In this document: piece after piece, positions 1,869-48,624 of the stretch
Numbering within the stretch: position 1 is the stretch's first letter
Layout of the letters: every line of letters starts with the position of its first letter
Assembly (NCBI GenBank): GCA_007644065.1
Contig: VJWN01000017.1
Coordinates: 558,001-622,000 of the forward strand
Length of the DNA stretch: 64,000 bases
From: Margaritispora aquatica
Lineage: Eukaryota; Ascomycota; Leotiomycetes; Helotiales; Discinellaceae
Direction of reading: 5' to 3'
Position numbers and translations under genes: made by a program
Notes under the pieces: model-generated
Databases searched by the model: none
What the model saw: only the letters and a program-made list of their open reading frames with translations
What the model was told of the DNA's origin: nothing

Positions 1869-2358
1869 AGGTCTTGAGGATGCAATTACGAGAACTACCT
1901 GATAGACTACCCCAGTCACTTCGACAGCAACTATAGTCCCGCTAGTAGAACTCTTGACCCAGATCTTTTGGTGTGCGTTTTGCCTTGGATATTTAGGTCA
2001 ATTCTGACTTCAATGCACTGATGAAAGTTGGTCTAGCGCCATTGGATTCCTCGCCTGTTAGCCTGCCAAATTGTGGAGCAACATTCAAAGACACGAAGGC
2101 TTATATTCCGTTTGAGAACATACATCTAACAGGTCTTGCCTATGTGGACTAGAACCCGGATTGTTTGAGCCTCAATAGTTCGAACGCAAGGCTGAGAGCA
2201 GATTATGGTGGTGATTGTGGTGGTGGCTTTACTACGCCACCAAATTAACCCCATGTGCCTCAGTCAACCCAATATCTCACATAGAGCCACCTCACTCGCA
2301 CCAATATTTATCTCAACATTCAAACAACAAACCACACCTCCCTGACAGTATCTCAGCA
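1869..2358. other. Spacer between 2EXR-type paralogs 1 and 2
   Basis: No gene seen. It holds the presumed 3' end of paralog 1 and the promoter of paralog 2. A CA-rich stretch precedes the start at 2359. Confidence 0.6.
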
Positions 2359-3048
2359 ATGTCTTCACCAGCCACAGCCTCTTTACTCACCATACCACTC
2401 GAGCTCCGTCGCATAATCTACTCATACATCACACATGAATTTGTCGCTCGGCCTTACCCAAGTTACGTCTCCATTTGCGTCTTATACCCCGAGACCTCCT
2501 ATGGCATCAACATGTATCGCTTTGGCTATCAACCTCAACACAGGGTTATGCTCATCGGCTCACTCCGCCTCACATGTCAACAGGTCTACGACGAGACACG
2601 AGACTTGATAGTTTTCCCAGAGCTGAGCATGGATCTCGAGTTCCAGGATTGGCCGGGCCTGGAATACTTGGATACCACAGCGGCAGAAGCTATTCTGAAC
2701 TCAAGATTGACGAGGGAGAATGTTGTCACTCTATGGCTTAATTTTGAGTTTTCGGCAAAGGTGTTGTTCGAGGGACGGAGGCATGGTGTGGGGAAGTTCG
2801 CAAGAAGAACACTGGAGAGAATGCTTGGGAAGAAAAAGAGATCAGAAGGAGATGTTGCGAAGTTACAAATCTCGCGATGGGACTGTGTGGTCACTGTAGT
2901 GAGGATGTTGGAGAAGTTTTCGAGGCTGCGTTTCGTCGGTGCGAGATCTGCTCTTGGAGATCCATTGGATGTCCACCTTGGTGATCTGTTAGAGCTGTCT
3001 GGAGACAGTTTGCAGTTGGAAAGATACTTCAGAGCACGACTGAAATGA
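2359..3048 (+). CDS. 2EXR/F-box-like protein, paralog 2 (short subfamily)
   Basis: Single-exon gene of 229 aa. The start was placed at MSSPATASLL because family proteins begin 5-25 residues before the F-box-like motif (here LLTIPLELRRIIYSYI); an upstream ATG in the same frame at 2215 would add an atypical leader. The second family motif is LRLTCQQVYDETRDLIVFP. The middle part (RENVVTLWLNFEF) and the C-terminal part (VRMLEKFSRLRFVGA) match paralogs 3 and 4. It lacks the C-x-H and HGDLxEWF motifs of the longer paralogs further right. Function unknown. Confidence 0.82.
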   Translation: MSSPATASLLTIPLELRRIIYSYITHEFVARPYPSYVSICVLYPETSYGINMYRFGYQPQHRVMLIGSLRLTCQQVYDETRDLIVFPELSMDLEFQDWPGLEYLDTTAAEAILNSRLTRENVVTLWLNFEFSAKVLFEGRRHGVGKFARRTLERMLGKKKRSEGDVAKLQISRWDCVVTVVRMLEKFSRLRFVGARSALGDPLDVHLGDLLELSGDSLQLERYFRARLK

Positions 3049-3523
3049 CTGAAGATACTGTCTGAGATGGAATTGTTGCTCGATGAAGTTGCTGGCGGTG
3101 TGGGAACTTTAAGCGAGATATTTTATTTAGTTGCCAATCATGCAGGGACAGTTCATTTACATGAAATATATTATTTCTTGATACTTCAAGAACTGAACTG
3201 CTTTAGATGTCTGTACTATCAAGGTCGCTAGCAAGGCAGAATCTGGTATTCGTGCATATCCAGTCCAAGTACTCTTTACTACCATCAATCCAAATACTCA
3301 CAGCGTCTATCGATTAGATTAGCTATGTTTATTGCAGAATAATACAGTCTCGGAGATTTGGATTATTGGTCTAGCAATTGGGTCTTATGTCTTCTCACCA
3401 AAGCTGACGTTTCTGCCACAGTCTCAGGCAAGCCAGTGCTATCCCTGCTCCTTGTCGCACTCGGCATTCACCCCGCACCTGAATCCTCCTCCTCAAGATC
3501 AATCCTCCATTACCATCCACACA
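3049..3523. other. Spacer between 2EXR-type paralogs 2 and 3
   Basis: No gene seen. An open frame runs into paralog 3 from 3332, but its N-terminal extension does not look like the family and is probably 5' UTR. Confidence 0.6.
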
Positions 3524-4198
3524 ATGGCAACTCTTCTCTCTCTTCCTCTTGAACTACGTCAACAAATCTATCGTTATCTAGCGTGCCCGCCATATATTCG
3601 CACACCCTTCAGTAACACTCCACCCTCAGAGTTTCCCTTAATCGTCGTTGCCTTCACTACCAGAGACAGGCCTTTGCATTACGCAACTCCAATCGCTCCT
3701 CTTCGCGCAACATGTCGCCAACTACATCGTGAAACCCTGTCATGGATCAAATTCCCGCTCCTTATCCTCTACATCCGGGTTCACATACGGTCTTCTTTCA
3801 CAGCCCAAGAAATTGAGGAAGTTAGGACTTTGCTGCGCTACCCGTTTATCACGGAGAACGTCACGCAAATCTGGCTGCTTGACTTGGACCTCAAAATACT
3901 CTTCCCGCTACCAGAAAGTAGATGGAAGCGAAGTGGTGCTCGAGCTGCGGTTCGCAAATTTTTCGGGAAAGAAGTAGTGCAGGCAGACGTTGAGGATGGA
4001 AATATCTCGAGTCTTGAAGTTTTCATCATCATTTTAAGAATGCTGGAAGATTTTGGAAGATTGGAATGGATATTTATTACCCAGGGAGTTTTCGGGATGA
4101 CCAAACTGAAGTGGTCTGATTTGAAGCCTCGGATTAGTGGGGACGAAGAATACTTGAAGAGGTTTTTCATGTATGAGTTGCTGGCACTGTTAGAATAA
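3524..4198 (+). CDS. 2EXR/F-box-like protein, paralog 3 (short subfamily)
   Basis: Single-exon gene of 224 aa starting MATLLSLPLELRQQIYRYL, with the F-box-like motif only three residues after the start. The second motif is LRATCRQLHRETLSWIKFP. It shares ITENVTQIWLLDLDL and ILRMLEDFGRLEWIF with paralogs 2 and 4, so it belongs to the short subfamily without the C-terminal HGD/GGGE module. It is in tandem, same strand, with paralogs 2 and 4. Function unknown; a protein-interaction adaptor role is only an inference from F-box likeness. Confidence 0.82.
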   Translation: MATLLSLPLELRQQIYRYLACPPYIRTPFSNTPPSEFPLIVVAFTTRDRPLHYATPIAPLRATCRQLHRETLSWIKFPLLILYIRVHIRSSFTAQEIEEVRTLLRYPFITENVTQIWLLDLDLKILFPLPESRWKRSGARAAVRKFFGKEVVQADVEDGNISSLEVFIIILRMLEDFGRLEWIFITQGVFGMTKLKWSDLKPRISGDEEYLKRFFMYELLALLE

Positions 4199-4527
4199 CA
4201 GCAGTTTCGGAAATCTCGAAGAATTCGACTGCGTGCTGCTTCTGATAGACTACGAAAAAGTTTGTCATAGATCGTTCAATTCTCCAACATCGAAGCACAT
4301 TCAATTATCGCAGCCAAAATGACATCAATATAGTGTTCGTTACATCACAAATCTGGTAGGATTGGACTACATTTTCAGCGTCGAAGTGTCCACTCACCGC
4401 CATGATACTAAGCCACTTATATCCCGGTCAGCGGAGCTGCATCCTTCCAACTACAACCACAGCGACAACGACAACGACAACCATCTCGAACCTTCAGCAG
4501 CTAGAATACCGACTCCCCAACAGCATC
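4199..4527. other. Spacer between 2EXR-type paralogs 3 and 4
   Basis: No gene seen. An ACAACGACA-like microsatellite lies near 4450-4485, just before the start of paralog 4. Confidence 0.6.
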
Positions 4528-5238
4528 ATGGCATCTACTCCCTGTATATTCACTCTCCTCATCATACCTCTCGAGATCCGACACCTAATCTACACCTACC
4601 TAACTCACCAATACACACGCAATGTACAATACCCCAGCCCACTGAGCAACACAGCATATCCCCAAATATCCCTCCGACACTCCATCAAGGGCGTCAAATC
4701 AAGCAGTGAAATGCTCCTGGCACCTCTCAGACTCACCTGCCGGCAAATATACCACGAAACACTCTCCTACATTGCTTTCCCGGACCTAGCAGTACACCTC
4801 ACAGCCAATGGCTACCATGCGCCTCTCCTCTTCCTGGATCCAGGACCAGCAAGACGCGAGCTAGAGAGGAGCTTCGTGAAGGAGAATACCATCAAATTGG
4901 TGGTAGTGGTGTCGGGGGGCGTGACTCCATTATTTGACAGAGAAATCAAGCCGCTGGTCCCAGTCAAGCAAAGTAAAGTACGTCGCATCATGCAGCGGGT
5001 ATTCGGTGGAATGACGGGCGATACATGGCACACTAGTTACTCCAGTGCTATGAGGATTGATACTATGATAACAACGATGAACATGCTACAGGAGTTTCCA
5101 AGGCTAGCAACTTGTTCTATTGTGTTTTCAAATGGAGGGGCAGAACAGGAGTGGAATGTTGAAGTTCAGGAAATGTGGCGCATTTTCAACGGGAGTCAAG
5201 ATTTCCTTGAGGCATACTTGAGGTTTAGGAGTTGCTGA
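4528..5238 (+). CDS. 2EXR/F-box-like protein, paralog 4 (short subfamily)
   Basis: Single-exon gene of 236 aa. The start MASTPCIFTLL was chosen because it lies directly before the motif LLIIPLEIRHLIYTYL. The second motif is LRLTCRQIYHETLSYIAFP. The tail has FVKENTIKLVVVVS and MNMLQEFPRLATCSIVF, aligning with paralogs 2 and 3. The ACAACGACA-rich leader before 4528 reads as poly-Thr in the same frame but is probably untranslated. This is the last gene of the + strand tandem block. Function unknown. Confidence 0.8.
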   Translation: MASTPCIFTLLIIPLEIRHLIYTYLTHQYTRNVQYPSPLSNTAYPQISLRHSIKGVKSSSEMLLAPLRLTCRQIYHETLSYIAFPDLAVHLTANGYHAPLLFLDPGPARRELERSFVKENTIKLVVVVSGGVTPLFDREIKPLVPVKQSKVRRIMQRVFGGMTGDTWHTSYSSAMRIDTMITTMNMLQEFPRLATCSIVFSNGGAEQEWNVEVQEMWRIFNGSQDFLEAYLRFRSC

Positions 5239-5560: not shown

Positions 5561-5574
5561 AAAAATATAAAAAA
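5561..5574 (-). terminator. Pol III terminator of the tRNA-Trp gene
   Basis: On the - strand, 16 nt after the mature 3' end, there is a run of six T (5574-5569), then ATA and a run of five T (5565-5561). Runs of four or more T terminate RNA polymerase III. Confidence 0.7.
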
Positions 5575-5585
5575 TGGACCTGAGA

Positions 5586-5596
5586 GGTATTGAACC
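5586..5596 (-). promoter_or_regulatory. Near-consensus B-box straddling the mature tRNA 3' end
   Basis: On the - strand the sequence GGTTCAATACC matches the TFIIIC B-box consensus GGTTCRANNCC. The normal B-box position (T-arm) is split by the 54-nt insert, so this element, formed by the 3' acceptor strand plus five downstream bases, could replace it. It lies about 113 nt after the A-box (TGGCGCAACGG, 5709-5699), a permissible spacing for Pol III genes. Use of this box is an inference. Confidence 0.5.
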
Positions 5597-5716
5597 ACAC
5601 CCGACTGAAGAAACTGTTAGAATAATATCTACATCATATGATTGATAGATGAACTCACTTTGAACGGATAACCTTCCGCTCTGGAGGCGGACGCGCTGCC
5701 GTTGCGCCAGCGGTCC
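5591..5716 (-). tRNA. tRNA-Trp(CCA) with a spliceosomal-like intron in the T-loop
   Basis: Exons 5716-5659 (58 nt) and 5604-5591 (14 nt) give a 72-nt tRNA. After joining, all stems close: acceptor GGACCGC/GTGGTTC (two G-U pairs), D-stem GCGC/GCGC, anticodon stem TCCGC/GCGGA, T-stem ATCCG/CGGGT (one U-G pair). The anticodon loop is CTCCAGA (anticodon CCA, Trp), the discriminator is A73, the variable loop has 5 nt, and A15-U48 can form the Levitt pair. Without removing 5658-5605, neither the T-arm nor the acceptor can form correctly. The anticodon loop itself has no intron. The A-box is canonical. The alternative is a decayed tRNA, but the exact restoration of 12 base pairs argues against chance. 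Confidence 0.82.
5605..5658 (-). other. 54-nt intron in the tRNA T-loop with U2-type splice signals
   Basis: Read on the - strand, the insert starts GTGAGT, contains TTCTAACAG with a CTAAC branch-point motif (5620-5616), and ends TTCTTCAG. These are the signals seen in protein-gene introns elsewhere in this window (45-60 nt, CTAAC/CTGAC, YAG). It interrupts the T-loop between nucleotides 59 and 60, whereas normal eukaryotic nuclear tRNA introns sit at 37/38. I could not draw a good bulge-helix-bulge for the tRNA endonuclease across the junctions. Actual splicing is inferred. Confidence 0.75.
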
Positions 5717-6545
5717 CATCTGATGTTGGAAGCCCCTGTCCCACGTCAGTTTATGTTTCCCTCACTTTCATATAGCCGAACTTTACCCGGCAATTGTCTC
5801 TCCACGAATGATCACAATATGGCCAAGCAAAAAACACTTCATTCTTGTTCTTTACTGGAACACTATCCACCCCTTTTGGTCGACTAAGCGTTGATGATTT
5901 CCTTGGAAATTTCACAAAGTACATCGTGTGGATTCAACCTGCCCTAATCAGAGGTGTAATCGCTGGTGTCCAGACCGCCCGCTTTAGTGGTTCGTTGTTG
6001 TGCCTGGGAAGTAAAGGTCAGATTGGACTTCCTGTCTTGAGTCTGAACGACAACAACAATCTTGTCAAAGTTTTGAAATAGTAGCATTATATATGACGTC
6101 TTGGTTGTATTCTCGACCACTATATAATCTAGAAACCCTTGCTAAATCAAAGTTTCAAATATCAGTTCGCGTGACCATGAAATAGATTTGTACTATTATA
6201 TGACTTGCAAAACACACTACCAAAAGAGCAAGATGTTTGAGAAGCGTTATATGGAACAACTTCGAATTTAACTATCGGGAAAGGTATAAATCAACTCTTT
6301 CATTGAGTTTTTGCTTCTGAACAAGGAAGACTATCAAGTACAGATATATTCCAAGAACTACACACGAATTTTCTCTACACCAAAATCCTCACATCGAGGC
6401 CCAAGAACACTGTAACATTATCCCTCACGCCTTCTATATCTAAGTGTCTTTGATCTACAAATAGGCGGCACTACTACTTCCTGGCCTTACCTCGCTTCTC
6501 ATCTATGTCTGATGTCTATAATCTATATCCAGAAACATTGGTGCT
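5717..6545. other. Intergenic region between tRNA-Trp and the permease 3' end
   Basis: AT-rich, with two short open frames on the + strand (5702-5887, 5845-6081) that resemble nothing I know. The right part is probably the 3' UTR of the permease. Confidence 0.6.
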
Positions 6546-13745: not shown

Positions 13746-14648
13746 CTACTTTGATTCCTCGGTTTGCTTCGTTCGCAAGTGGAACTCGGCAGCAATATAG
13801 CCAGTATCATTATGCCGCCTCCTAATCTCCAAAACCACATCTCCACCCCCCACCTCCAACGCATGCAAAATCCCGTCATAAACATCCCTATACCGTCCCC
13901 GCCTATCAAAATCAATCGAAACGTACACAAAAACCTTCACCCCCTTCCTCAGCAACGGGACCAGCGGCGCAAAATCGCTCGTTGGATCCCTAAACCAGTC
14001 CCCCGCATTCCCATGTCCCAAATCCAAATACAGCATCTCCAACTTTGGGCATTCGTGCAGCGCGACGAGCATCGCTCTGTACGACGGCCCGTCGATCCTT
14101 GTCCACCGCTCCGCGTCTGAGCTGCTCGTTGCCATTTGGCGCAGCGACATGAGTAGTAGTGAGTTTGGTAGTGGCCAGACTTTTGGCCTGAAGCCTGTAT
14201 GGTGGTAGCATCGCGAGCCGGTGAGCGCGCATGAGATGTACAGCACGACGTGAACGAGATTCTGAGCAATGAAGCCGTTTTCCGGAGCCGCGAACACGGC
14301 TGTGAACTGCGGAATGAGCTCGTCGGTGCGATGGTTGTTGACATTGCCGTAGAAGGCCATTTGGAAGGCGGGGAAGGAGAGGTAGGGCCGGGTTTCATGC
14401 CAGAGCTGTCGTGAGGTGGCGCGAAGGGAACAGAGGTTGTGTTGGACCATGTGGGAGCGTAGACTATAGTGCTCCCATTCCGGGTGGCGGGTTTGGCGAA
14501 GCAAGTTGGTGGGAGAGAGGGGTAGAGTCGAGGTTCCCCCTGGAAGGGTCGAGTAGCCGGTGGAGAGGTAGTGGTAGATCATTTGTCTTAGTTCTAGAGG
14601 GAGGGTGAGGAGATTGAGTGGTGGTGAGGCCGTGTTTGTGGCTGCCAT
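13746..14648 (-). CDS. 2EXR/F-box-like protein, paralog 5 (long subfamily)
   Basis: Single exon, 300 aa, start MAATNTASPPLNLL directly before the motif LTLPLELRQMIYHYL (residues about 14-28). The second motif is LRATSRQLWHETRPYLSFP. The central part has CALTGSRCYHH, the family C-x6-C-x-H element; then LGHGNAGDWFRDP (variant of HGDLxEWFxxP), PLLRKGVKVFV and a terminal GGGDVVLEI. It starts the right-hand block of seven long paralogs after the permease/CFD1 interruption. Function unknown; the Cys/His element could bind metal (inference). Confidence 0.83.
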   Translation of the reverse strand: MAATNTASPPLNLLTLPLELRQMIYHYLSTGYSTLPGGTSTLPLSPTNLLRQTRHPEWEHYSLRSHMVQHNLCSLRATSRQLWHETRPYLSFPAFQMAFYGNVNNHRTDELIPQFTAVFAAPENGFIAQNLVHVVLYISCALTGSRCYHHTGFRPKVWPLPNSLLLMSLRQMATSSSDAERWTRIDGPSYRAMLVALHECPKLEMLYLDLGHGNAGDWFRDPTSDFAPLVPLLRKGVKVFVYVSIDFDRRGRYRDVYDGILHALEVGGGDVVLEIRRRHNDTGYIAAEFHLRTKQTEESK

Positions 14649-15286
14649 GGCTGTAAGCAGAGTAGTGAATATTACAAGTAAAGTTTGAGGATGAAAGGTT
14701 GGAGTGTTGTTGTTTTTGGCACGAGTATGCTTCTCTATATAGGTCGCCCATTTTTCGCTTAGGTGGATGGCTTATGCAAGTTTGGGGCTGGGAAATGCAG
14801 GCTCAGGCTCAAGTAGGCAGACTTATCAATTGCTTGAATATCACAGCTTATGCAAGTTACATAATACACAACTCCTCTGATTTGGCTGTTTCTGTCAAAT
14901 GCTTCGCAGAAGAATAGAGTAGCTTTTATCATTCTTCTCTGTTCTCTGTTCTCTGTTCTCTGTTCTCTGTTCTCTGTTCTCTGTTCTCTATAAAGTGTCC
15001 TAAACCTAGTGAGCCCAGTCAGGGGAATTTTTTACGGAAGCTTGTTTGGCTTCTCTCCAATCTCTAGCTTTGCTGACTACTAGACAGATCTGCTGGTTCT
15101 TCTCTCCCTGGTAAATAATTTCTGTGTACTGTTGGTGGAAACAATAAGGAGGTAGTAAACTTTCAATTTTGTTTCGAGAGCCACTGCACTAAGGAGTGGC
15201 CCTGAGCTAGGACGGAGCATGAGTAATTTTGTGATTTACATACAATGAGTGAAGGAAAGGAAAATAAGGGGTATCAATTTATCAAC
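14649..15286. other. Spacer between paralogs 5 and 6
   Basis: No gene seen. Contains the 7-bp tandem repeat at 14935-14990 and presumably the promoter of paralog 5 on the left and the 3' end of paralog 6 on the right. Confidence 0.6.
14935..14990 (+). repeat. Eight-copy TTCTCTG tandem repeat
   Basis: Seven perfect TTCTCTG units (14935-14983) followed by TTCTCTA (14984-14990). Confidence 0.95.
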
Positions 15287-16222
15287 CTACGCCGGCGAAG
15301 TTACAGCTACAACTCCAGGAACTCCTTGCTCTGCTCGCAACACAAGCTTCATCCCATACTTCTCTCTATCGAACTTCTCCAGCACAAGTTCGCCGCCACC
15401 TTTCTCCAAACACTCAACTGTTTTGGAGTAAACGTCGTGTTTGGTGCCCTTGATGTCCAAATCATAATCTACCGCGATGGTCACCAGAACTCCTTTCTTG
15501 ACCCATGGTAGGAGTGTCTTGAACTCCTCCACCGGATCAACAAACCACTCCATCAAGTCTCCATGGTTCACAGAGACATGGAACCACTCCAACTTCTTGA
15601 AACCTTCCATATCCAGCATGCCCTTAGCCCAAGCTTCTTTATGCACCGGCGCAGGTGCAACGAGCGTCGAAATTGTCCGATCGAAAGCGTGCATCAACTT
15701 CGGATACTTCGGCCTCTTATCCCCAAACATCTTATCATTCTTCGTCTTATGCCTACAGCCCCATATGCCCTTCAAGCACTTGTTATACAACGCCACGGCG
15801 ACCGTGTAATCCGGCGCGAAGCTATCCTGCAAGCAATCGGCAATGGCCTCGGAGAGCATGGGCTTAACGGCATAATCAACGACAATACACAAACCCAGAC
15901 GAGGATATGTGACGAAGTCGGCAATCTCCCGCGACATCTGCTTATTGCACCGTCGGATGGTGCATAGGATATATTCCAATGTCTTCTTGTTCTCGATCCA
16001 CTCCTCCAGCTGCTCAGCCGAACAGTACGGCCCGAGCACGCCTTCGGGCATCGTTTGCTCCTCGTGCACATAGCGCGGGCCCGTGAGCGGCTGTAGCTCT
16101 TTGGCGAGGAGTGAGTAGATCATCAGCCTGATCTCGAGTGGGAGGCCCAAGAACTCGATTTTGGGCTTTAATGTGGGCTGCGTTTCAGTCGTAGTTGGGA
16201 TCGACATGACTGCTGTCTCCAT
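15287..16222 (-). CDS. 2EXR/F-box-like protein, paralog 6 (long subfamily)
   Basis: Single exon, 311 aa. The start METAVMSIPTTTE was preferred to an in-frame ATG 57 bases upstream because other paralogs have short leaders. Motifs in order: FLGLPLEIRLMIYSLL; IRRCNKQMSREIADFVTYP; CLKGIWGCRH (C-x6-C-R-H); VNHGDLMEWFVDP; LPWVKKGVLVTI; CLEKGGGELVLEKF. It has an extra segment after the first motif (GPRYVHEEQTMPEG). Function unknown. Confidence 0.83.
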   Translation of the reverse strand: METAVMSIPTTTETQPTLKPKIEFLGLPLEIRLMIYSLLAKELQPLTGPRYVHEEQTMPEGVLGPYCSAEQLEEWIENKKTLEYILCTIRRCNKQMSREIADFVTYPRLGLCIVVDYAVKPMLSEAIADCLQDSFAPDYTVAVALYNKCLKGIWGCRHKTKNDKMFGDKRPKYPKLMHAFDRTISTLVAPAPVHKEAWAKGMLDMEGFKKLEWFHVSVNHGDLMEWFVDPVEEFKTLLPWVKKGVLVTIAVDYDLDIKGTKHDVYSKTVECLEKGGGELVLEKFDREKYGMKLVLRAEQGVPGVVAVTSPA

Positions 16223-17538
16223 CTTGGAGGTCGATTCGCGTGGTGGCTTTGAAATGTAGATGTTGCGTGGTCGTTGCACAAAATAGGTGGTGGTTGAGAT
16301 ATATCATGAGGTGCGGGGTCCTGACAACCCTTTATCTACGCCCGAAAACATGGCAAAAAGCAATATATCGGAGCCTCACCGAGTTCAGACCCCAGAGAGA
16401 GAGCCTTGCCGGCTTTTCTATCCTATGGGATGTGTGATGGGGAAAGTCTTGCATGAGCTGAGCTCAGCCTCACCCCCACCTAGTCAGTTATGCGCTGTTG
16501 GACACACCAGGGCCTCCCCAAGTTCCAGATAAGGAAAAGTGTTCCAAGGAAGTGTTGCAAAATTGACGAGGCTCTGCTGATTCGTATTGGGGATTGGGCT
16601 TTGTGGGAGGATGGTGAAATGTTACCATGTGCTTGTGTTGGTGGGACAGACTTGGCAAAGTCTGTTACGCTCCGAGGCATTTGCCGAGTCTGGTGCTGAG
16701 ATATTTTCTTTGGCTGCAGACCATTTGCTGCCACTTTTGGTGAGCTGCATACGTTTTAGCCTTCATTAGTCACCTTTTGTTGTCGTTTAGATCTTTTTGT
16801 TTCGTCAATTCTCAAAGCTTTGCAGCCAGTGAGGAGAGAAAGAGCAATAACCTTGCAGCGCAGCGCAGCGCAGCGAGCGTGGCAGTGGGAGGTCTCTTTC
16901 TACTACGGTTCGAATTCTTCAGAAATAACTATCTGCTTTATAAGTTCAAGAGGCTAGGTTCATTACCCAAAGGTTAACTAAGAAATGACTTTCTCCTGCT
17001 GTGGTTTCAGTCTAAGTGTTGCTAGCTTCTAGCATAAAGCAAAGTTGATATACGATCTATATACCATTACGTTCTTTTAAATACAATGAATACATGTATC
17101 AGAAGCAATATATAAGAAAAAATGATCCTCAAAGCTCTACCTTCTTCAATTACTAGAAACAACCTAGATATTGTGAAGTCTACTATCGATTTCTTGATAT
17201 TTAGAGTATAAGACCTCAATACTCTAACTTAATATTATGGAATATGTCTACAGATTAGTGTTGGCAAACATATGTGGCCTATAGAATTGCATTCAGTCTC
17301 AAGTAGACAAGTTTAAAATACCAAAAAATGGTGACACAAGACTTTACGAGGTACGAATCTGCCTGTGCTCATCGGGATCCAGACCTGGCGATGGCCACAC
17401 GAAACATAAATCCTGCGGGCTGTTCCCCGTATTTGTCCTAACAAAAGCACTTGTTCGTCCATTTGTTCCAAGACCAAGGCTTGAGTTTCCTTGACAAATC
17501 CAACACAAAACATAAGATATTTCTCCAAATCCCTCAAA
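16223..17538. other. Divergent intergenic region between paralogs 6 and 7
   Basis: No gene recognised. Holds both promoters, a CAGCG microsatellite at 16856-16875 and an AT-rich stretch near 17040-17250. A GGTTCGAATTC B-box-like string at about 16907 has no tRNA around it. Confidence 0.6.
16856..16875 (+). repeat. (CAGCG)4 microsatellite
   Basis: Four perfect CAGCG units, followed by a partial AGCG. Confidence 0.9.
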
Positions 17539-18336
17539 ATGGAGCAGTCAACATTGCAAACATCATCATCTCCGCAACCAACTCTGCTTACTCTCCCCTT
17601 AAAAGTTCGCCACAAAATATACACCCTCTTAGCTCACCAACCTCCCAATACACATGCTCTCCTTGCCAGTCCCAACAACGACCCACAACCACCCACGATT
17701 CCATTCCCCGTCCTCGCAAGCGAGGCGTGGTGGGGATACGATTACGCTACATACCGCCCCACACTCCTCGGTCCGGTACGTGCTACTTGTCGTCAACTAC
17801 TACGAGAAACAGTGCCATTCATCTCATTTCATCCAATTCGGCTGCAGTTCAATGCCGAGCCGAAAGTTGGGAGTGAAATGGCCCATGTGATTACTCGAGA
17901 ACAGGACACTGTGTGTTGTAGCGATGTCGTTGCTGTGTTACTCATGTACAGCTGTTGTCCCAAGACATTTTATCCTTGCCCACATTCTCCTGAAGAGCCA
18001 TTAGAAGAGACATATTCAATTGATACGGCGTCTTTTCATGCTGCTCTCGCTGCTTGTGTGGGACAGTTCCCACTTTTGAGATCTATCGCCATCGCTACGG
18101 ATCATGGGGATTTGTCTGAGATGTTCCAGAATCCTACTGAGTCGTTGAAGGTGTTGAAGCCTCTCTTGGAACGCACGATGCAGGTTACTTTACACGCGTC
18201 TTCGCCTTCTCAGAAGTGGGGGAAGAAGTACAAGCCTTGTGAGAAGATAGAGAGTGCTTTGGAGGAAGGGGGAGGCGAGATTTTGTTGTTGTTGAAACCT
18301 TGTGAGCTTAAATGGGGGACACTTTACTTGCGATGA
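17539..18336 (+). CDS. 2EXR/F-box-like protein, paralog 7 (long subfamily)
   Basis: Single exon, 265 aa, start MEQSTLQTSSSPQPTLL. Motifs in order: LLTLPLKVRHKIYTLLAHQ (the usual E of EIR/ELR is K here); VRATCRQLLRETVPFISFH; CCPKTFYPCPH (Cys/His element); TDHGDLSEMFQNP; LKPLLERTMQVTL; ALEEGGGEILLLL. Its 3' end is 80 bp from the 3' end of paralog 8 on the opposite strand (tail to tail). Function unknown. Confidence 0.83.
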   Translation: MEQSTLQTSSSPQPTLLTLPLKVRHKIYTLLAHQPPNTHALLASPNNDPQPPTIPFPVLASEAWWGYDYATYRPTLLGPVRATCRQLLRETVPFISFHPIRLQFNAEPKVGSEMAHVITREQDTVCCSDVVAVLLMYSCCPKTFYPCPHSPEEPLEETYSIDTASFHAALAACVGQFPLLRSIAIATDHGDLSEMFQNPTESLKVLKPLLERTMQVTLHASSPSQKWGKKYKPCEKIESALEEGGGEILLLLKPCELKWGTLYLR

Positions 18337-18416
18337 TTGAGAGTTGAAAGTTATATTGTCTGGAAAGCAGAAATTATTACAAAATTTTCTTAACATCTGA
18401 ATATGAAGCCACTCTT

Positions 18417-19322
18417 CTACAATTCTTCGTCATCTTCGTTTCTGAATTCCAACACCGCGCTCGACCAATAATTACTACTCAACACGAGCTCGCCTCCTCC
18501 ATCACGCAAAGTCTTCCAAAGCGTAACACAAGGCTGATGCATATATCGCACCCCTTCTTCCCGATCTCTGATGCCAATTACCACATTTACTCCCTTGGCA
18601 ATCATTCCCTCCAGCACTGCCAGATCCTCAACCGGGTTTTCAAACCACTCCAACAAATCACCATGACTAAACCAAATGCACAAATGGGTCAACTTAGGAT
18701 ACTTCTCCACGGCAGCTATCGTAGCACGGAACGACTTGCTATGCAAAGGCCGAGGTTTTCTGATTTTGGAGAGCACCTGGTTGAATGCCCGAGGAACACG
18801 GTGGTGTAGGGGTTCCACGGACGTGAGAAGCATGTACCGTGGATTAGGCGTCATGGTATGTCTACAACTCAGGCTTTCAGAGCAACATGTGAAGCATAAA
18901 CACACAGCTGCCACTTCGCCCCTCACTGATCTGCTCTGCGCCTCGGAGATCATATCGACCATAGCGCTCTTCTTTCTGCCACAGCCATGCTCAACTTCAA
19001 AATAAAAGTTCACTGCTGGGAAGGCGATAAATTCTGCTGTTTCGCGAAGAAGCTGGGAGTTGGTCGCTGACAAATCACCCAGGCAAGTTCTGTACTTCGA
19101 GTAGTAGCTGTGCCCCCAGTCGAGCCTCCATGGGAAGACGGTCTTGACGAAAGGATTAAGGGCGATCTTAGGAATGACAGTGGGTGGCCCGCCAAAACGC
19201 AGGTTGTTTGGTGTGGGCGGTGGTTGTGCGAGGAGTTTGTAGATCATGAAACGTATCTCGATTGGAAGTGTCAGAAATGTCACTTTTGATTTTATAATTG
19301 TAGACTTGTTGGTTGACGCCAT
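18417..19322 (-). CDS. 2EXR/F-box-like protein, paralog 8 (long subfamily)
   Basis: Single exon, 301 aa, start MASTNKSTIIKSKVTFL. Motifs in order: FLTLPIEIRFMIYKLLAQ; LSATNSQLLRETAEFIAFP; CFTCCSESLSCRH (Cys/His element with an additional Cys pair); FSHGDLLEWFENP; GMIAKGVNVVIGI; LRDGGGELVLSS. The region before the Cys/His element is basic (GRKKSAM). Convergent with paralog 7. Function unknown. Confidence 0.84.
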   Translation of the reverse strand: MASTNKSTIIKSKVTFLTLPIEIRFMIYKLLAQPPPTPNNLRFGGPPTVIPKIALNPFVKTVFPWRLDWGHSYYSKYRTCLGDLSATNSQLLRETAEFIAFPAVNFYFEVEHGCGRKKSAMVDMISEAQSRSVRGEVAAVCLCFTCCSESLSCRHTMTPNPRYMLLTSVEPLHHRVPRAFNQVLSKIRKPRPLHSKSFRATIAAVEKYPKLTHLCIWFSHGDLLEWFENPVEDLAVLEGMIAKGVNVVIGIRDREEGVRYMHQPCVTLWKTLRDGGGELVLSSNYWSSAVLEFRNEDDEEL

Positions 19323-20179
19323 GATCTTGTTCCAACGTACTTATCGACAAGTGTTGGGCTTGAGGGATAGCTTTGTATTTCGAATATTTCGAAATTTACG
19401 ACTGGTTCGATTTCGATAGCGAGAAAATATATGGGGCTAGCGCCTAGAAAGACTGTTGTCGCTGTAGGAGATTATGATAAATGGTTGAGAAATGTTGAGA
19501 GTCGCCATGGCTGGTTGATATCTAAGCCACATGTGAAACAACAATCTGCACAGCCCCAGCCTCTTTGTCTCGGGGAGGAGTACATATGGTTGTTTCTAGC
19601 AATGTGTAAATGAGATATGAGGAATCGGATCAATGTCCAGGGCTATACAGGCTTGAATCGCATGTTTATACCAAATCATGAGATTATTTATCCTCACTCA
19701 CATCCATCCCCCTTTTTCGTTCGCCTAATTGGCTCGGCAGAACTCGTGATCTCCTTATTAATATGGCCGTCAATAAATATTGTTTCTCTTCTATTGACGA
19801 GACCTTTGACAAAGAGACTCTATATAATAAAAATTACTAACTCATATAAATTCAGCAAGGAAACAACGAACTCAAAGTGCTTGATCACGTGTCAAATATC
19901 ATTGCGGTGGGTGCTCAGCCTTGATCATCCCTGATTCCCTGATTGAGACATGATCCACTTTCCTGCATTTATTGGCTGGCATTTGAGAGCCTACATCGTA
20001 TCTCCAGGCTTTCTTGCTTGCGGGGGGAGGGGGGGGTTACCAGCCTTACCTTTGTGAACAACCACCAAATAATTTCATGAGAAGCTCTAACTGTCCTAAC
20101 TGTTGAGAAGTAGATTATATTTATCATCTATCTTTGCTTTTCTATCGATAACAAGCATAACGTCTCAGTCAAGTCCAGC
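19323..20179. other. Divergent intergenic region between paralogs 8 and 9
   Basis: No gene recognised. AT-rich with short open frames only; a G-run lies near 20021-20037. Presumably holds both promoters. Confidence 0.6.
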
Positions 20180-21058
20180 ATGGCTCACCTCGAATCGAAG
20201 CCAGCTCCAACACTTCTCACTCTTCCCCTCGAGCTCAGACTCGAGATCTACTCGCTTCTCGCCCATCAATCGTACCGCCCACCAAAACCTGTCTCCACGC
20301 CCATCGGCCCACTGCCTTACGTGATTGCTGCTCCATTCTACGCATCTCAGAACATAAATCCCCAGCAATGGAAATGTTACATGTCACCATACAGACCAAC
20401 CATGGTCCTCTGCACGCTTCGAGCCGTGAACCGGCAGCTCCGCAACGAGTTGCGAGGGGTTGTGGCATTCTATGATCTGGCGTTGGAAGTCACAGCGGAT
20501 TTTAGAGCCAAAAACGGTGAGGGAATGGTGGATGGAGTTAAAAAAGCTGTGGCACAGGATGTTTTGAGAGAAAATGTGGTTGCTGTGGGATTGTATTACC
20601 AGTGCATGGCCAAGGGCCTGGCGTGTCGACATAACACGAAGGATTATTCAGCATATTCACCCAAATGGAAACAAAATCCATTCGACAATATCGTCAGCGG
20701 CTCTGACCGTCTCTACTCGCGCCTCTGGCCACCTCCATCGATCCCCAGGGCATCATTCCAAAGTGCGATTCTCGCATTGGAGAAGTTGGAAAGCTTGAAG
20801 TACCTGCATGTGTCTTTTAGTCATGGAGATGTGCTAGATTGGTTTGAAGGTTCGGTCGAAGAGACGCTGAAGGTTTTCGTGCCGTTTTTGAGGAGGGGAG
20901 TGCAAGTTAGTCTAGGATCAAAGTCTTTTTTCGATAGGGCTGGGAAGCATGTTGATCCTTGTGCAAAGATGACCGCGTTGCTAAAGAAAGGAGATGGGCT
21001 GTTGGATGTGAATTTCCCTCATGGACCTTTAGGCAGGGGACTCATCTTGAAGAGATAA
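20180..21058 (+). CDS. 2EXR/F-box-like protein, paralog 9 (long subfamily)
   Basis: Single exon, 292 aa, start MAHLESKPAPTLL. Motifs in order: LLTLPLELRLEIYSLLAHQ; LRAVNRQLRNELRGVVAFY; CMAKGLACRH (C-x6-C-R-H); FSHGDVLDWFEG; VPFLRRGVQVSLG; a weakened terminal motif LLKKGDGLLDVNF in place of GGGE. Closest in layout to paralogs 6 and 8. Function unknown. Confidence 0.84.
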   Translation: MAHLESKPAPTLLTLPLELRLEIYSLLAHQSYRPPKPVSTPIGPLPYVIAAPFYASQNINPQQWKCYMSPYRPTMVLCTLRAVNRQLRNELRGVVAFYDLALEVTADFRAKNGEGMVDGVKKAVAQDVLRENVVAVGLYYQCMAKGLACRHNTKDYSAYSPKWKQNPFDNIVSGSDRLYSRLWPPPSIPRASFQSAILALEKLESLKYLHVSFSHGDVLDWFEGSVEETLKVFVPFLRRGVQVSLGSKSFFDRAGKHVDPCAKMTALLKKGDGLLDVNFPHGPLGRGLILKR

Positions 21059-21421
21059 CAGCTTGGCTTTATAGGGGAATTTTGATAAACCAAAGAATTT
21101 GCGCTGGAAACTGTAACGAATGAGGAGGTAAAGCATTGGCTTGGTTGTCAAAACACCAAGTAGCTTTAAATTGAGGGACACTTGAAGCACTAAGCCTTGT
21201 CTTCGTTATACAAAGTCTCCAGCCTGCCGCGCCTAGGCAGCTGAATGTCTCGCTTACAGACGCTCACTAGGCTGAGTGTGAGAACTCCAAATTTAACAGT
21301 CTCTAAAGGCTGCAAACCCCCTCCCAGATAACACACACTCCGAGAAAGAAGAGAGAGAAAGTCTCAGCTTTGTTCATTGAAATATTCGAGTGCTCGCACC
21401 AACTTCACATGTCCATCGGTC
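21059..21421. other. Spacer between paralogs 9 and 10
   Basis: No gene seen; short promoter-like region before paralog 10. Confidence 0.55.
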
Positions 21422-22333
21422 ATGGACAGCATAATACAGACCCAGCCCACCACGCCAAAAGCAACTCTGCTCACCCTACCCCTCGAAATTCGACTCCTTA
21501 TATACAGCTTTATACCACCAACAAACACAAGACGCCCCCATTATTTTCGCCACTACTGGAGACTTCCTACCGAAGCCTATCACAAATCCACAAATCCCGC
21601 CGACCTACCCCCCTACCGACCCACTCCCATTCGTCTGCTATTCAGGCCCGTTCCGTACCAAACCCGCTTCCAGATTTCTCTCGTGAACCGCCAGCTCTAC
21701 CACGAGACCAAGGCCTTCAAAACGCATCCCGAGCTCACCTCTTCCTTCACCATTGACCTAAACGATGAGACAAGAATCATCCGTGCAGCAAATTCAGCAA
21801 TGGCCGATGGCTCCCCAAAGGAATGTTTTGTCAGAGCGGAAGTGCTATTTATGTGTCTCAAGAACAACTGTCGGCATGTCAAGTTGATCCATCGATTGCG
21901 CCCACTATCGAGGTTCAGTCCTGTTGATCAGTTTGTTCGCTTCAAGAAACTCTACGTCTCCTCAATACTTCAAGCGTCGCCTCGATCTATACCATCTAGC
22001 ACTTTCCAAACACTTACTGCACTATTAAATGAATACCCGAATCTTCGCGAGCTTCATCTTTTTGTCGACCATGGTAGCTTGATGGAGTGGTTCACAACGC
22101 CAAGTAGAGAATTTGACCTCTTGGTCCCTTTGCTGAAACGTGGAGTGCACGTGTCGCTTCGTGTTAACGATGTGTTTAATTCGCCGACGACGTGGGACAA
22201 TAGGAATTTTGTATATAGGGAGTTTTGCGAGTCTTTGAGGCTGGGTGGGGGAGATGTTATTGTTCGGGGTGATGTTCCAAATTTCCTTTCCAGCATAAGG
22301 CTCGTGTTGAGATCTGAAGCAGGACCTCTATAG
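21422..22333 (+). CDS. 2EXR/F-box-like protein, paralog 10 (long subfamily)
   Basis: Single exon, 303 aa, start MDSIIQTQPTTPKATLL; an in-frame ATG at 21377 would add 15 atypical residues. Motifs in order: LLTLPLEIRLLIYSFI; ISLVNRQLYHETKAFKTHP; CLKNNCRH (a shorter C-x4-C-R-H); VDHGSLMEWFTTP; VPLLKRGVHVSLR; LRLGGGDVIVRG. Same strand as paralogs 9 and 11. Function unknown. Confidence 0.84.
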   Translation: MDSIIQTQPTTPKATLLTLPLEIRLLIYSFIPPTNTRRPHYFRHYWRLPTEAYHKSTNPADLPPYRPTPIRLLFRPVPYQTRFQISLVNRQLYHETKAFKTHPELTSSFTIDLNDETRIIRAANSAMADGSPKECFVRAEVLFMCLKNNCRHVKLIHRLRPLSRFSPVDQFVRFKKLYVSSILQASPRSIPSSTFQTLTALLNEYPNLRELHLFVDHGSLMEWFTTPSREFDLLVPLLKRGVHVSLRVNDVFNSPTTWDNRNFVYREFCESLRLGGGDVIVRGDVPNFLSSIRLVLRSEAGPL

Positions 22334-22844
22334 TTTAGCGAAAAGAGAAGACTCGAAGTTTATTGTACAGTCAAGGTACTAAGGATATGTAATTTTCCGG
22401 CCCAAGGATTAATTACATGGTCATCTACCTCAAAGTGAACTGGCTTCCACGAAAAAGAACCAACAAGCGAGCAATCTTTCGCTATTTCTTTCCTTTCAAG
22501 ATTTGAACTTCTCAGCTCCTTGTCGTGGGATGTGGCAGCAATGCAGAGGGTTATCAAAGGAAGCCGCGGACAGGTAAGACACTGTGCTCAGCAGTTGTTG
22601 AGTTCACCTGCAGCCACGAGCCTCGGCCAGCGTAGCGTCGAAATTACGCCTAGCTATGTCTCAAGCTCAAGACATGTAGGGCCTTTCTCAATCCATATAT
22701 CCTCAAAGATGACTTCTTCGTCCATGTTAATCTTACCTGTTAAAGATCCATCTATCAATCTAACTATACACAGACCAATCTATTGCCTAGAACTTTTCAC
22801 GCCAGCTATATTCCTTTCTTACCTCCAACAACTAGGCGAGAACC
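22334..22844. other. Spacer between paralogs 10 and 11
   Basis: No separate gene supported. An open frame from 22520 runs into paralog 11 in another frame and looks like a shadow. Confidence 0.55.
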
Positions 22845-23897
22845 ATGTCTTCACCAGCCACAACGACCATCACCACAAAATCAACCTTTCTCACCCTTCC
22901 CCTCGAGATCCGGCTACTAGTATACTCCATATTAAGGGAATGGCAAAGGAACACCCCAGTCTTCATGCGCGACGACAGATCCGGGCACTCATCCAGCAGC
23001 AGCATCCGCGTAACTGGCTCCAAATTCAAGTTCCCACCCTACTACATCACCGACTCGCCATACGGACACTACTTGGAATCACTCAACCGCCATCAGCCCA
23101 GCAGACCCACAATTGAGCTCTCGATGACTTGCCAACAACTCCACCACGAGATTCGCAGTTACAATTACATCACCTTCCCTAGCACCCTGATGCTGTACCT
23201 CAGGCTCCGCATCGACCACCACCAACCCTCAGTTGCTATGACTGCGGCTGCGAAGGTGGCAAGCTCAGATGCGGATTTGCGAAAATGGTTTTCCGGCGCG
23301 TTTATCATGCTCACGTGTGATTCGCGCTACGAATTTCTGCATCTGGTTCCAGGAAAAGTGTCACTCTCCTTGTACAATATCTTGAGGCGAGGTCTTGATG
23401 ATTCTCTCCGGTATCTCCAAAGGGTTGGGCTGAAATGGGAAAGAGACGAAACGACACCACTCATTCCTACCCTCGCTTCATTGCAAGCCCTCATCACCTC
23501 CCTCTCTAAAACAAACTGCCCCTCTCTCCAGTCCCTCTTCCTCAGCACATGCTACGACGATACGCAGTCCTGCCTCCGCAATCTCTTCACATCCCCCTCC
23601 TTCAGCACAATTCTCGCACCGCTTCTGCACCGCAGCGTCGAAATTTCGTTTCGTATCGATTACCCATGGGAATATGCGGGGATCTCCCCCGATGCAGAGT
23701 ATTACCGTATAGCAAACATGCTAGAGTATGGGGGTGGCGAGGTCGTCATGCGCTGGACGCGAAGGCCGATGCTTACACAATACATGGATGAGGAGAGATA
23801 TATGTTTGTATTGCGAGCTGATGCCAGGGGCGTTGCTTGTGCCATTGCACCTTCTAAACCTCAGCGAGATCATTATTCAGAACCAATCGCTACCTGA
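22845..23897 (+). CDS. 2EXR/F-box-like protein, paralog 11 (divergent long member)
   Basis: Single exon, 350 aa, the longest and most divergent copy. The start MSSPATTTITTKSTFL precedes FLTLPLEIRLLVYSIL; its first residues MSSPAT are identical to paralog 2. The second motif is LSMTCQQLHHEIRSYNYITFP. The Cys/His element is not recognisable (only MLTCDSRYEF), and HGDLxEWF is replaced by YDDTQSCLRNLFTSP, but APLLHRSVEISFR and MLEYGGGEVVMRW remain. It is the right-hand end of the array. Function unknown. Confidence 0.82.
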   Translation: MSSPATTTITTKSTFLTLPLEIRLLVYSILREWQRNTPVFMRDDRSGHSSSSSIRVTGSKFKFPPYYITDSPYGHYLESLNRHQPSRPTIELSMTCQQLHHEIRSYNYITFPSTLMLYLRLRIDHHQPSVAMTAAAKVASSDADLRKWFSGAFIMLTCDSRYEFLHLVPGKVSLSLYNILRRGLDDSLRYLQRVGLKWERDETTPLIPTLASLQALITSLSKTNCPSLQSLFLSTCYDDTQSCLRNLFTSPSFSTILAPLLHRSVEISFRIDYPWEYAGISPDAEYYRIANMLEYGGGEVVMRWTRRPMLTQYMDEERYMFVLRADARGVACAIAPSKPQRDHYSEPIAT

Positions 23898-46288: not shown

Positions 46289-48624
46289 ATGGACATCCCG
46301 GAGGCCGCGCCAACTTACGAGGTCCCAGATCGCGAAGTCGTTGCAGTTGAACATCCTATGATCATACAAAATGTCGAAAAGGCCATAAAGACATTTGGAA
46401 GCAACCGGCCCTTCGTCAGAGTGAGATCCGCACCAAGATCATAGATATTGCTCATAAGAAAACTTTCAAAACACGTGATGTGATGGTGATACTGATTCTT
46501 CATAGATACTTGAGTCTGCAGATCCAGAACAATGTATACCTCTCTGGTTACGCCAGAACGATCCAATGTGTGTGCCAATCTTGTCTCACAACAGTCCAAC
46601 AAACAATGTTCTCCTAAAGTTCACGGTTCCAAAACGGACAGGCAGAAAACGGAAGCGAGGTTCTGACGGTCCCTTCCTTTTCCCTGGAGGAGAGACGACA
46701 AATGGGGTGAATCTGGCCCAAAATGGAACTCCAGAACAATCATGCTTGATTGTTGAAAAGGCGTCTACGATTTTCAGGAAGATTAACGACAATGTCGACT
46801 CATATCAGGTCGCAGCCGTAGCGGAAATTCGACAGACACATAGATATAGAGGTATTGAAGACCCAAGGACAGCTTTTGGAATAATTTCTAAATAACCCTC
46901 TAGGTTTGGCTGATTTTCATCACTCTACCAGCAACACAGAGTTTGGTGGAAAGTTCGTGGATCACATCGTCGATGGGGATAGTAAGAATTGAAATCCCAT
47001 GTCAAACAATCTCTGTCACTAACAGTAAACAGTTGAAAAGCTTAAGCAGTTTAAGTTCAATCCTAGTCGGGGATGGAAGCCGTTGGAAGACTTTATCCCT
47101 GCTCCAAAGATGACTGTCCATTCTATTCCACAAAACTGGACTTGGCAACAAAATGCGAATATCCATCGGCGAGTCGAGGCAAAGACAGGAAAGCAGGTAC
47201 TGGTCAATGTTTCCAAGCCCAGAAAGTTTGAAGTGTCATATTTGAAGTTCGATGAAGAGCCGGTACCTATGGAATCACCTTTTGAAATACCTGAAGATCC
47301 AAATGTTCAAGAGCTTATTGCTGATCTCAAAACTTTGTTTGAGGAACGGCCGATTTGGAGTCGAAGGGCCATTTTCAACCGTTTGAGCAAATGTCGAGTC
47401 AGATATCTAATGAAGGCTGGCATACAACACGTTGGCTACCAATTCAGAGGCGGGCCATTTCGAGAGTGTGTTATCAAATACGGACTAGATCCCAGGAAAG
47501 ACTCAAAGTACCGCCAATTCCAGACCGTGTTTTTCAAGGTCTACGAGGACCAACGAAATTCGGGGATGCAGTGGCATGATATGCGTACCACTTACAGCAT
47601 GACCAAGAAAGGAGCAATGCAGGGACCTGATGACGGACACACATTCGATGGCAAGAAGGTCACTTTCGATGGCAAAGTGTGGCAATTATGCGACGTTTCT
47701 GACCCACTTCTTAAAAGACTCATCGATAACTCTCCCTTAAACGAGACATTTGAGATATCCGCGGATGGTTGGTATATGAACGGATCAATGGCAAAGATTA
47801 GAGGAATAATGCGAACGAAGATAGTGTCATTATGGCGGAAACAGGATGTCAAGGACGAGGACTTTGATGCAGCTCTCGAATTACCTGATCATGTACCTGG
47901 CAGGAAGAGTTCTCAGATCCAAGTAGCCCTGCCAAATGAGGGAATGACGGCAGAAGACTTCGCAAATATCAACCAAAAAGGTGTGCCCAATATCGTTGAG
48001 GAAAATGGTGTACGTAGGAGGCTTCACAAAGGAAAGATTCGAACACATCGGATACGTGCAAAGGTTGGCTCCCAGAAGGCACCAACTCGCCGGCGAAGAC
48101 GAAAGATGAATGATACACTGGTACCTGCGAATCGAGTTACGAAATCTGGGACTGCGCCTGGTACATCAGAGGCTATAGACCCAGGTCTTACAAATGGAGT
48201 AGCTGGTTCGGAAGATCCTAATCAAGCGATGGAAGGGTCCGAAGAAGAGAGTGATTCAGGAGATGAGGACGACGATATCGAGACCGAAGATGACGATGAT
48301 GAAGATGATCAAGACGACGAGACTGGGCTTGAAAACATAGCAGCTCCAATATTGAAGAGGCCTCTCAGTAGCGGATCCGCATCAACGGGACAGTCATCGC
48401 GAGCGACAACCGGGACGCCTGGCCCAGCTGGTTCAGAGCCTCCACGAAAGAAGCCAAGATTGTCCAAAGGTGCAACTTTAAAGCCCAGGAAACCGCGAGA
48501 GCCTAAAGAGAAGAAACCTAAAGGTGGCAGCGGCAGTTCCTCTGTCAATGGATTCCGGTATACGCCTGCTCCGATTGATATGTCAATGTTCCGCAATATC
48601 CAACCAAGACCTCCTCCGACATGA
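46289..48624 (+). CDS. sfc1: TFIIIC subunit Tau95/Sfc1 (GTF3C5)
   Basis: Subunit of transcription factor IIIC, which contacts the A-box side of tRNA promoters as part of the Tau-A module. Four exons, join(46289..46420, 46506..46851, 46904..46981, 47033..48624), 715 aa, phases consistent. The N-terminus EVPDREVVAVEHPMIIQN is the conserved dimerisation-domain start. The C-terminal winged-helix region has PIWSRRAIFNRLSKC, LMKAGIQHVGYQFRGGPFR and GYDPR-like YGLDPRKDSKYRQFQT, the family signature. A long acidic tract (about residues 587-616) and a Lys/Arg/Pro-rich tail follow, as in the yeast protein, where the acidic tail has been proposed to mimic DNA. The conserved termini support this assignment over other Pol III factors. 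Confidence 0.92.

Follow-up and report, generated by a model that had tools for sequence, protein, structure and literature searches.

Can a nuclear tRNA gene carry an intron of the kind found in messenger RNA precursors and still give rise to a working tRNA? Established teaching holds that the spliceosome is not part of tRNA splicing. The question is raised by a short locus on the minus strand (5716-5591) of the DNA analysed here, a window of 64,000 nucleotides which corresponds to C9:558001-622000 of a 42.4 Mb genome in 49 contigs (contigs are denoted by C followed by a number). Our reading, to which we give a probability of roughly 0.83, is that the locus works as a nuclear gene for tRNA-Trp(CCA) and that its T-loop is interrupted by a spliceosomal intron.

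Structure of the interrupted tRNA-Trp gene

Scanning of the window with Rfam models (cmscan) yields a single match at gathering score. This match, to the tRNA model RF00005, covers exactly 5716-5591 of the minus strand with 38.3 bits (cut-off 29) and aligns 54 nucleotides as an insertion in the T-loop. ARAGORN, which was run with bacterial settings, reports no tRNA in the window, and comparison of the gene with prokaryote and viral contigs gives no match, as expected for a fungal tRNA. In a protein search, the named best hits bear Leotiomycetes-type names throughout (Acephala, Phialocephala, Cadophora and others), and the best hit of all is an unnamed protein at 44% identity. Deletion of 5658-5605 leaves 72 nucleotides that fold with 21 of 21 cloverleaf pairs and have a 7-nt T-loop, the anticodon CCA and A73. 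The claim of the earlier note that this is a tRNA-Trp gene interrupted in its T-loop is confirmed, both by the Rfam match and by the pairing restored on removal of the 54 nucleotides, and its decisive support comes from other contigs of the genome (see below). Exon 1 (positions 1-59 of the tRNA; 5659..5716, minus strand, as are all other features of the gene) presents CCA in the loop CTCCAGA and is the first part of the RF00005 match, while exon 2 (positions 60-73, with the discriminator A73) lies at 5591..5604. In the neighbourhood of the gene, at 2215-5238, and further away at 13746-23897, the window contains many ORFs with a common LLTLPLEIRLxIY-like start, apparently a tandemly expanded family.

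The 54-nt intron of mRNA type occupies 5605..5658 and interrupts the T-loop between positions 59 and 60. Its 5' splice site is GTGAGT (5653..5658), its branch site is TTCTAAC (5616..5622) with 5617 as the likely branch A, and its 3' splice site is CAG (5605..5607). Ten registers of deletion fit the cloverleaf, and GT...AG ends are present in just one of them, which restores the T-loop TTCAAAT. When the 54-nt insert was shuffled base by base, the combination of GTRAGT, CTAAC near the end and YAG was retained in none of 300,000 shuffles. The signals had been described earlier as exactly like those of protein-gene introns in the window; in the comparison set, which is small and unclean and possibly includes several false introns, CTRAC is found close to the 3' site in 3 of 9 ORF-joining intron candidates.

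Paralogues and the tRNA-Trp genes of the genome

A genome-wide DNA search with the window gene returns four matches at three places, namely the gene itself, C6:279674-279809 (82%) and C11:680240-680318. The last of these is matched in two adjoining pieces (exon 1 at 97%, exon 2 together with 7 nt of flank at 100%), and what is missing between them is exactly the insert. The intronless tRNA-Trp gene located there (C11:680247-680318; 56.3 bits) equals the predicted spliced tRNA of the window at 70 of 72 bases. The paralogue on C6, on the other hand, carries a 53-nt insert at the same nucleotide as the C9 gene, with the signals GTAAGT...TTCTAAC...CAG, and the branch A is placed 13 nt from the 3' end of the intron in both. 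Joined exons of the C6 gene are identical to the C11 gene at 72 of 72 bases, exon 2 is the same in all three genes (14/14), and the two differences of the C9 exons from C6 and C11 fall on positions 20 and 47 (standard numbering), which are both unpaired, leaving the stems unchanged. Nine deletion registers are compatible with the structure of the C6 gene, and GT...AG again occurs in just one, at the same position as in C9. The generic Rfam tRNA model mis-parses the C6 gene and gives it 25.9 bits, below the 29-bit cut-off.

The middle part of the intron presents a different picture, as the C9 and C6 sequences are identical at 17 of 31 bases, where shuffled sequences give 16.3 +/- 2.1. Exon identity next to intron interiors at the level of shuffled sequence indicates that exons and splice signals have been kept while everything between them has been replaced. 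Judged from these alignments, such conservation is the pattern of a spliceosomal intron and not of a pseudogene. The interrupted copies on C9 and C6 might nevertheless be dead tRNA pseudogenes, with the C11 gene supplying the tRNA-Trp, and the existence of an intronless C11 copy speaks for such a possibility. However, the stems of dead copies should decay as fast as the intron interior unless gene conversion mends the exons alone, whereas here the exons stay at 72/72 and 70/72 against introns in which only the splice signals are kept, and the 3' flank is preserved in C9, C6 and C11 as well. Gene conversion could account for part of the exon identity. We consider a pseudogene origin unlikely. 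The spliceosomal intron proposed in the earlier note gains support from the intronless C11 paralogue and from the C6 gene, in which the signals recur and the insert begins at the identical nucleotide.

A pattern running from the A box to the anticodon, with at most one mismatch, identifies four tRNA-Trp(CCA) places genome-wide (C6, C9 and two on C11), though it would miss genes whose A box has diverged further or whose D-loop differs in length. Two of these genes are split (C9, C6), one is intronless (C11:680247-680318) and the fourth, near 664037 on the minus strand of C11, contains an anticodon-loop intron of the conventional kind; it scores 45.6 bits and has one mismatch in the anticodon stem. 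This fourth gene is diverged, with an apparent A-C mismatch at 31-39, and may be a second isodecoder or in decay. Because an intronless and a conventional-intron copy exist on C11, the split genes may be dispensable. It had been argued beforehand that several intact intronless tRNA-Trp copies elsewhere, along with stems decaying rapidly in related species, would mean a pseudogene; one intronless and one conventional-intron gene were indeed found, but no decay is seen between the paralogues.

Promoter elements, 3' flank and terminator

The A box of the gene, TGGCGCAACGG at 5699..5709, is intact by comparison with the consensus. The internal B box is interrupted by the intron and scores -2.5 with a weight matrix built from 26 boxes of 31 genes (five genes were dropped, three with an odd box and two with no match). 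The intact internal B box of the C11 gene scores 8.0, below all 26 training boxes (8.9 to 16.3). A B-box-like sequence, GGTTCAATACC, is present downstream at 5586..5596, where it consists of the 3' strand of the acceptor stem and the adjoining 3' flank. This downstream box scores 11.6 in C9 and in C11, and 8.1 in C6, which is below the training range. The 3' flank that contributes to it is conserved in the alignment of the three paralogues, with ATACCTC in the window (5584..5590), ATGCCTC in C6 and ATACCTC in C11 (ATRCCTC), and beyond these 7 nt the flanks of the three Trp genes are little alike. It is possible that GGTTCAATACC acts as a substitute B box in the split genes, much like the external B box that serves U6 in yeast. 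This promoter reading is soft since the downstream box of C6 (8.1) and the internal box of C11 (8.0) both fall under the training range. We have also considered that GGTTCAATACC forms the second T-arm of a longer tRNA, in which GGTCC(A) further downstream in the window pairs with the 5' GGACC and marks the end, and rejected it, as C6 and C11 are without GGTCCA.

Upstream of the gene, ATAAAC at 5749..5754 (-38) is a weak, imperfect TATA-like element. Among 20 other tRNA genes, upstream TATAWW is perfect in 6 and matched at 5 or more of its 6 positions in 19, a count that stands without a background control. Downstream, TTTTTT at 5569..5574 is a likely Pol III terminator, and a run of six T is found 3' of the C6 and C11 genes too. 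Avoidance of TTTT within introns was tried as a signature of Pol III and is not discriminating (0 of 5 introns, 3 of 14 intron-like control stretches). The broken internal B box makes Pol III promotion less certain, and it also fits an explanation in which the intron belongs to a long Pol II RNA that merely happens to span the tRNA. Against this stand the intact A box, the T6 run shortly downstream in three genes, the possible substitute B box and the unrelated flanks of the copies, and we regard a Pol II host RNA as extremely improbable. Within the same window, an ORF at 47083-48624 of the plus strand gives a match to the Pfam family Tau95, which belongs to the Pol III machinery as a subunit of TFIIIC.

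Interrupted tRNA and U6 genes and their relation to known systems

Introns in other tRNA genes were assessed using a genome list of 61 tRNA matches, which is a lower bound (62 of 1722 candidates were scored) and does not include the gene of the window. The strict set of splice signals is found between the A and B boxes of none of 20 other long tRNA genes from this list (88-154 nt), a much looser pattern being present in 2 of the 20, and in all ten of these genes that were aligned the insert lies within the anticodon loop. On contig C38, several tRNA positions recur every 33,701 bases, which suggests that the contig overlaps itself and represents a circular genome, perhaps that of the mitochondrion. 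Scans for further introns covered T-loop inserts and inserts before an intact B box. Two patterns for T-loop introns gave 45 and 25 matches, below the 59 and 40 of reversed-pattern controls. When pairing of the T-stem and acceptor stem was evaluated at 30 pattern loci (20 of the 25-match scan and 10 of the 45-match scan, some places twice), 12 of 12 pairs were obtained only in the two split Trp genes, and the others reached 11 at most. Inserts before an intact B box gave eight matches compared with six in controls; three of the eight are two Trp genes and a tRNA-Arg gene, and the other five show no tRNA at gathering score. Since C6 was missed by this last scan, it can miss such genes.

The tRNA-Arg gene, at C23:1168604-1168738 (minus strand), matches the Rfam tRNA model with 39.4 bits. 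When 49 nt are removed at 30/31 and another 14 nt at 37/38, a tRNA-Arg(CCU) with 21 of 21 pairs is left, whose anticodon arm resembles that of yeast tRNA-Arg(CCU). The insert at 30/31 has the signals GTTAGA...TACTAAC...TAG. Out of 3328 parses with two deletions, 25 agree with the cloverleaf and also have U33 and a purine at 37; among these 25, only the parse at 30/31 and 37/38 shows GT...AG. The gene probably contains two introns of different kinds, one of spliceosomal type in the anticodon stem and a conventional one at 37/38, although GTTAGA is a weak 5' site and the cloverleaf is also obtained with other parses. Parses with one intron fared less well: a plain deletion at 37/38 gives 20 of 21 pairs with one broken, and a shifted single deletion pairs fully, yet the anticodon becomes AGA, which is of serine type, while the long variable arm is absent from the tRNA. 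A single long canonical intron retains a small residual probability. No second tRNA-Arg(CCU) copy was found genome-wide with the patterns used. The window gene is not an isolated case, as the second tRNA-Trp on C6 shares the feature and the tRNA-Arg(CCU) probably does too.

Removal of a non-canonical T-loop intron could alternatively be the work of the tRNA splicing endonuclease, cutting at a bulge-helix-bulge (BHB) motif as in archaea or red algae. The position would suit this enzyme, 59/60 being a known junction site in disrupted archaeal tRNAs (PMC3978253), and conventional anticodon-loop introns are present in the genome. However, the central 4-bp helix of the motif has 0 of 4 pairs in C9, 3 of 4 in C6 and 1 of 4 in the Arg gene (one register, without a positive control), and the elements that have been kept, GTRAGT, TTCTAAC and CAG, are not needed by the endonuclease. 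We find cutting at a BHB very unlikely and favour spliceosomal removal of the intron.

The same genome offers a precedent in the two U6 genes found in it. The U6 gene on C48 (near 1672708-1672815) has an mRNA-type intron, GGTC/GTAAGT...GCTGAC...TAG/AATTTG, and so has that on C23 (near 2147951-2148056), GGTCAATTTG/GTAAGT...GCTAAC...TAG/AAACG, where slashes mark the exon-intron borders. The two intron positions are six bases apart, neither gene has the intron of the other, and once joined, the two sequences are the same from GCCTTCGGGC up to and including the T-run. Because the Rfam U6 matches start inside the introns, both the 5' ends and the introns were assigned by visual comparison with yeast U6. 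SRP RNA is represented by one gene with an end-to-end match over 280 bases. The premise of the earlier note that Pol III transcripts do not normally meet the spliceosome has to be corrected for fungi, as fungal U6 introns are known (references in PMC5832005) and both U6 genes found here appear to bear introns.

In the scheme that we propose, a Pol III precursor would be made from the A box, perhaps the upstream TATA-like element, and the substitute B box overlapping the 3' end and flank. The major spliceosome would read GTRAGT, TTCTAAC and CAG, and 53-54 nt would leave as a lariat. T-arm and acceptor stem would fold only after this removal, and tRNA end processing would follow. In the Arg precursor, the spliceosome would act before the tRNA endonuclease, which would otherwise face no proper anticodon stem. 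Transcription by Pol III, lariat splicing, the order of the steps and use of the tRNA in translation are what we infer from the DNA of one genome. With moderate confidence we extend the scheme to a third nuclear route of tRNA splicing, in which the spliceosome would mature tRNA-Trp from two genes and the one tRNA-Arg(CCU) gene found would depend on it, the anticodon-stem intron of the Arg precursor having to be out before the cut at 37/38; the Trp B box would have shifted to the acceptor end with the adjoining 3' flank, a move made tolerable by G-U pairs of the acceptor stem.

If confirmed at the RNA level, such splicing would give nuclei a third route of tRNA splicing. It would mean that a Pol III precursor, though short and tightly folded, can be processed by the spliceosome before entering the tRNA pathway, and that introns of mRNA type can find their way into tRNA genes as into those of U6. 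Intron gain through reverse splicing into abundant small RNAs would become testable. The treatment of C6 by the Rfam model suggests that generic tRNA models may overlook genes of this kind or parse them wrongly.

Among the papers listed by full-text searches, in which subscription journals are mostly not covered, none deals with a spliceosomal intron in a nuclear tRNA gene. The available portions of PMC4090602, PMC4494063 and PMC13130702 contain nothing on spliceosomal tRNA introns, and a 2026 review, in the part available, places tRNA splicing outside the spliceosome (PMC13149111). Introns of mRNA type in Pol III RNA genes are already known, and it is the tRNA as host that would be new. According to PMC5832005, frequent interruption by an intron was at that time known for no small structured RNAs other than U3 snoRNA and U6 snRNA, and Tani & Ohshima 1989 and Canzler et al. 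2016 are cited there for mRNA-type introns of fungal U6 snRNA genes. The fungal U6 introns resemble the present case in that a Pol III transcript and structured RNA is interrupted by a short spliceosomal-type intron, and U6 genes of this kind were found here too. In contrast to U6, the host here is a tRNA, the intron disrupts the T-arm and the internal promoter, and splicing should precede tRNA end processing. Fungal U3 snoRNA introns are likewise spliceosomal, lie in a small structured RNA and are recurrent in fungi, but differ in the host RNA (same source). The canonical introns of eukaryotic tRNAs, which the tRNA splicing endonuclease cuts out, also interrupt tRNA genes, and occur in anticodon loops of this genome, whereas the introns described here are at 59/60 (or 30/31), have spliceosomal signals and show no consistent BHB. 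The ectopic introns and permuted tRNAs of archaea and algae, some with junctions at 59/60, share the T-loop position but depend on the BHB according to PMC3978253, unlike the tRNA-Trp introns of this genome, which carry the signals of mRNA introns.
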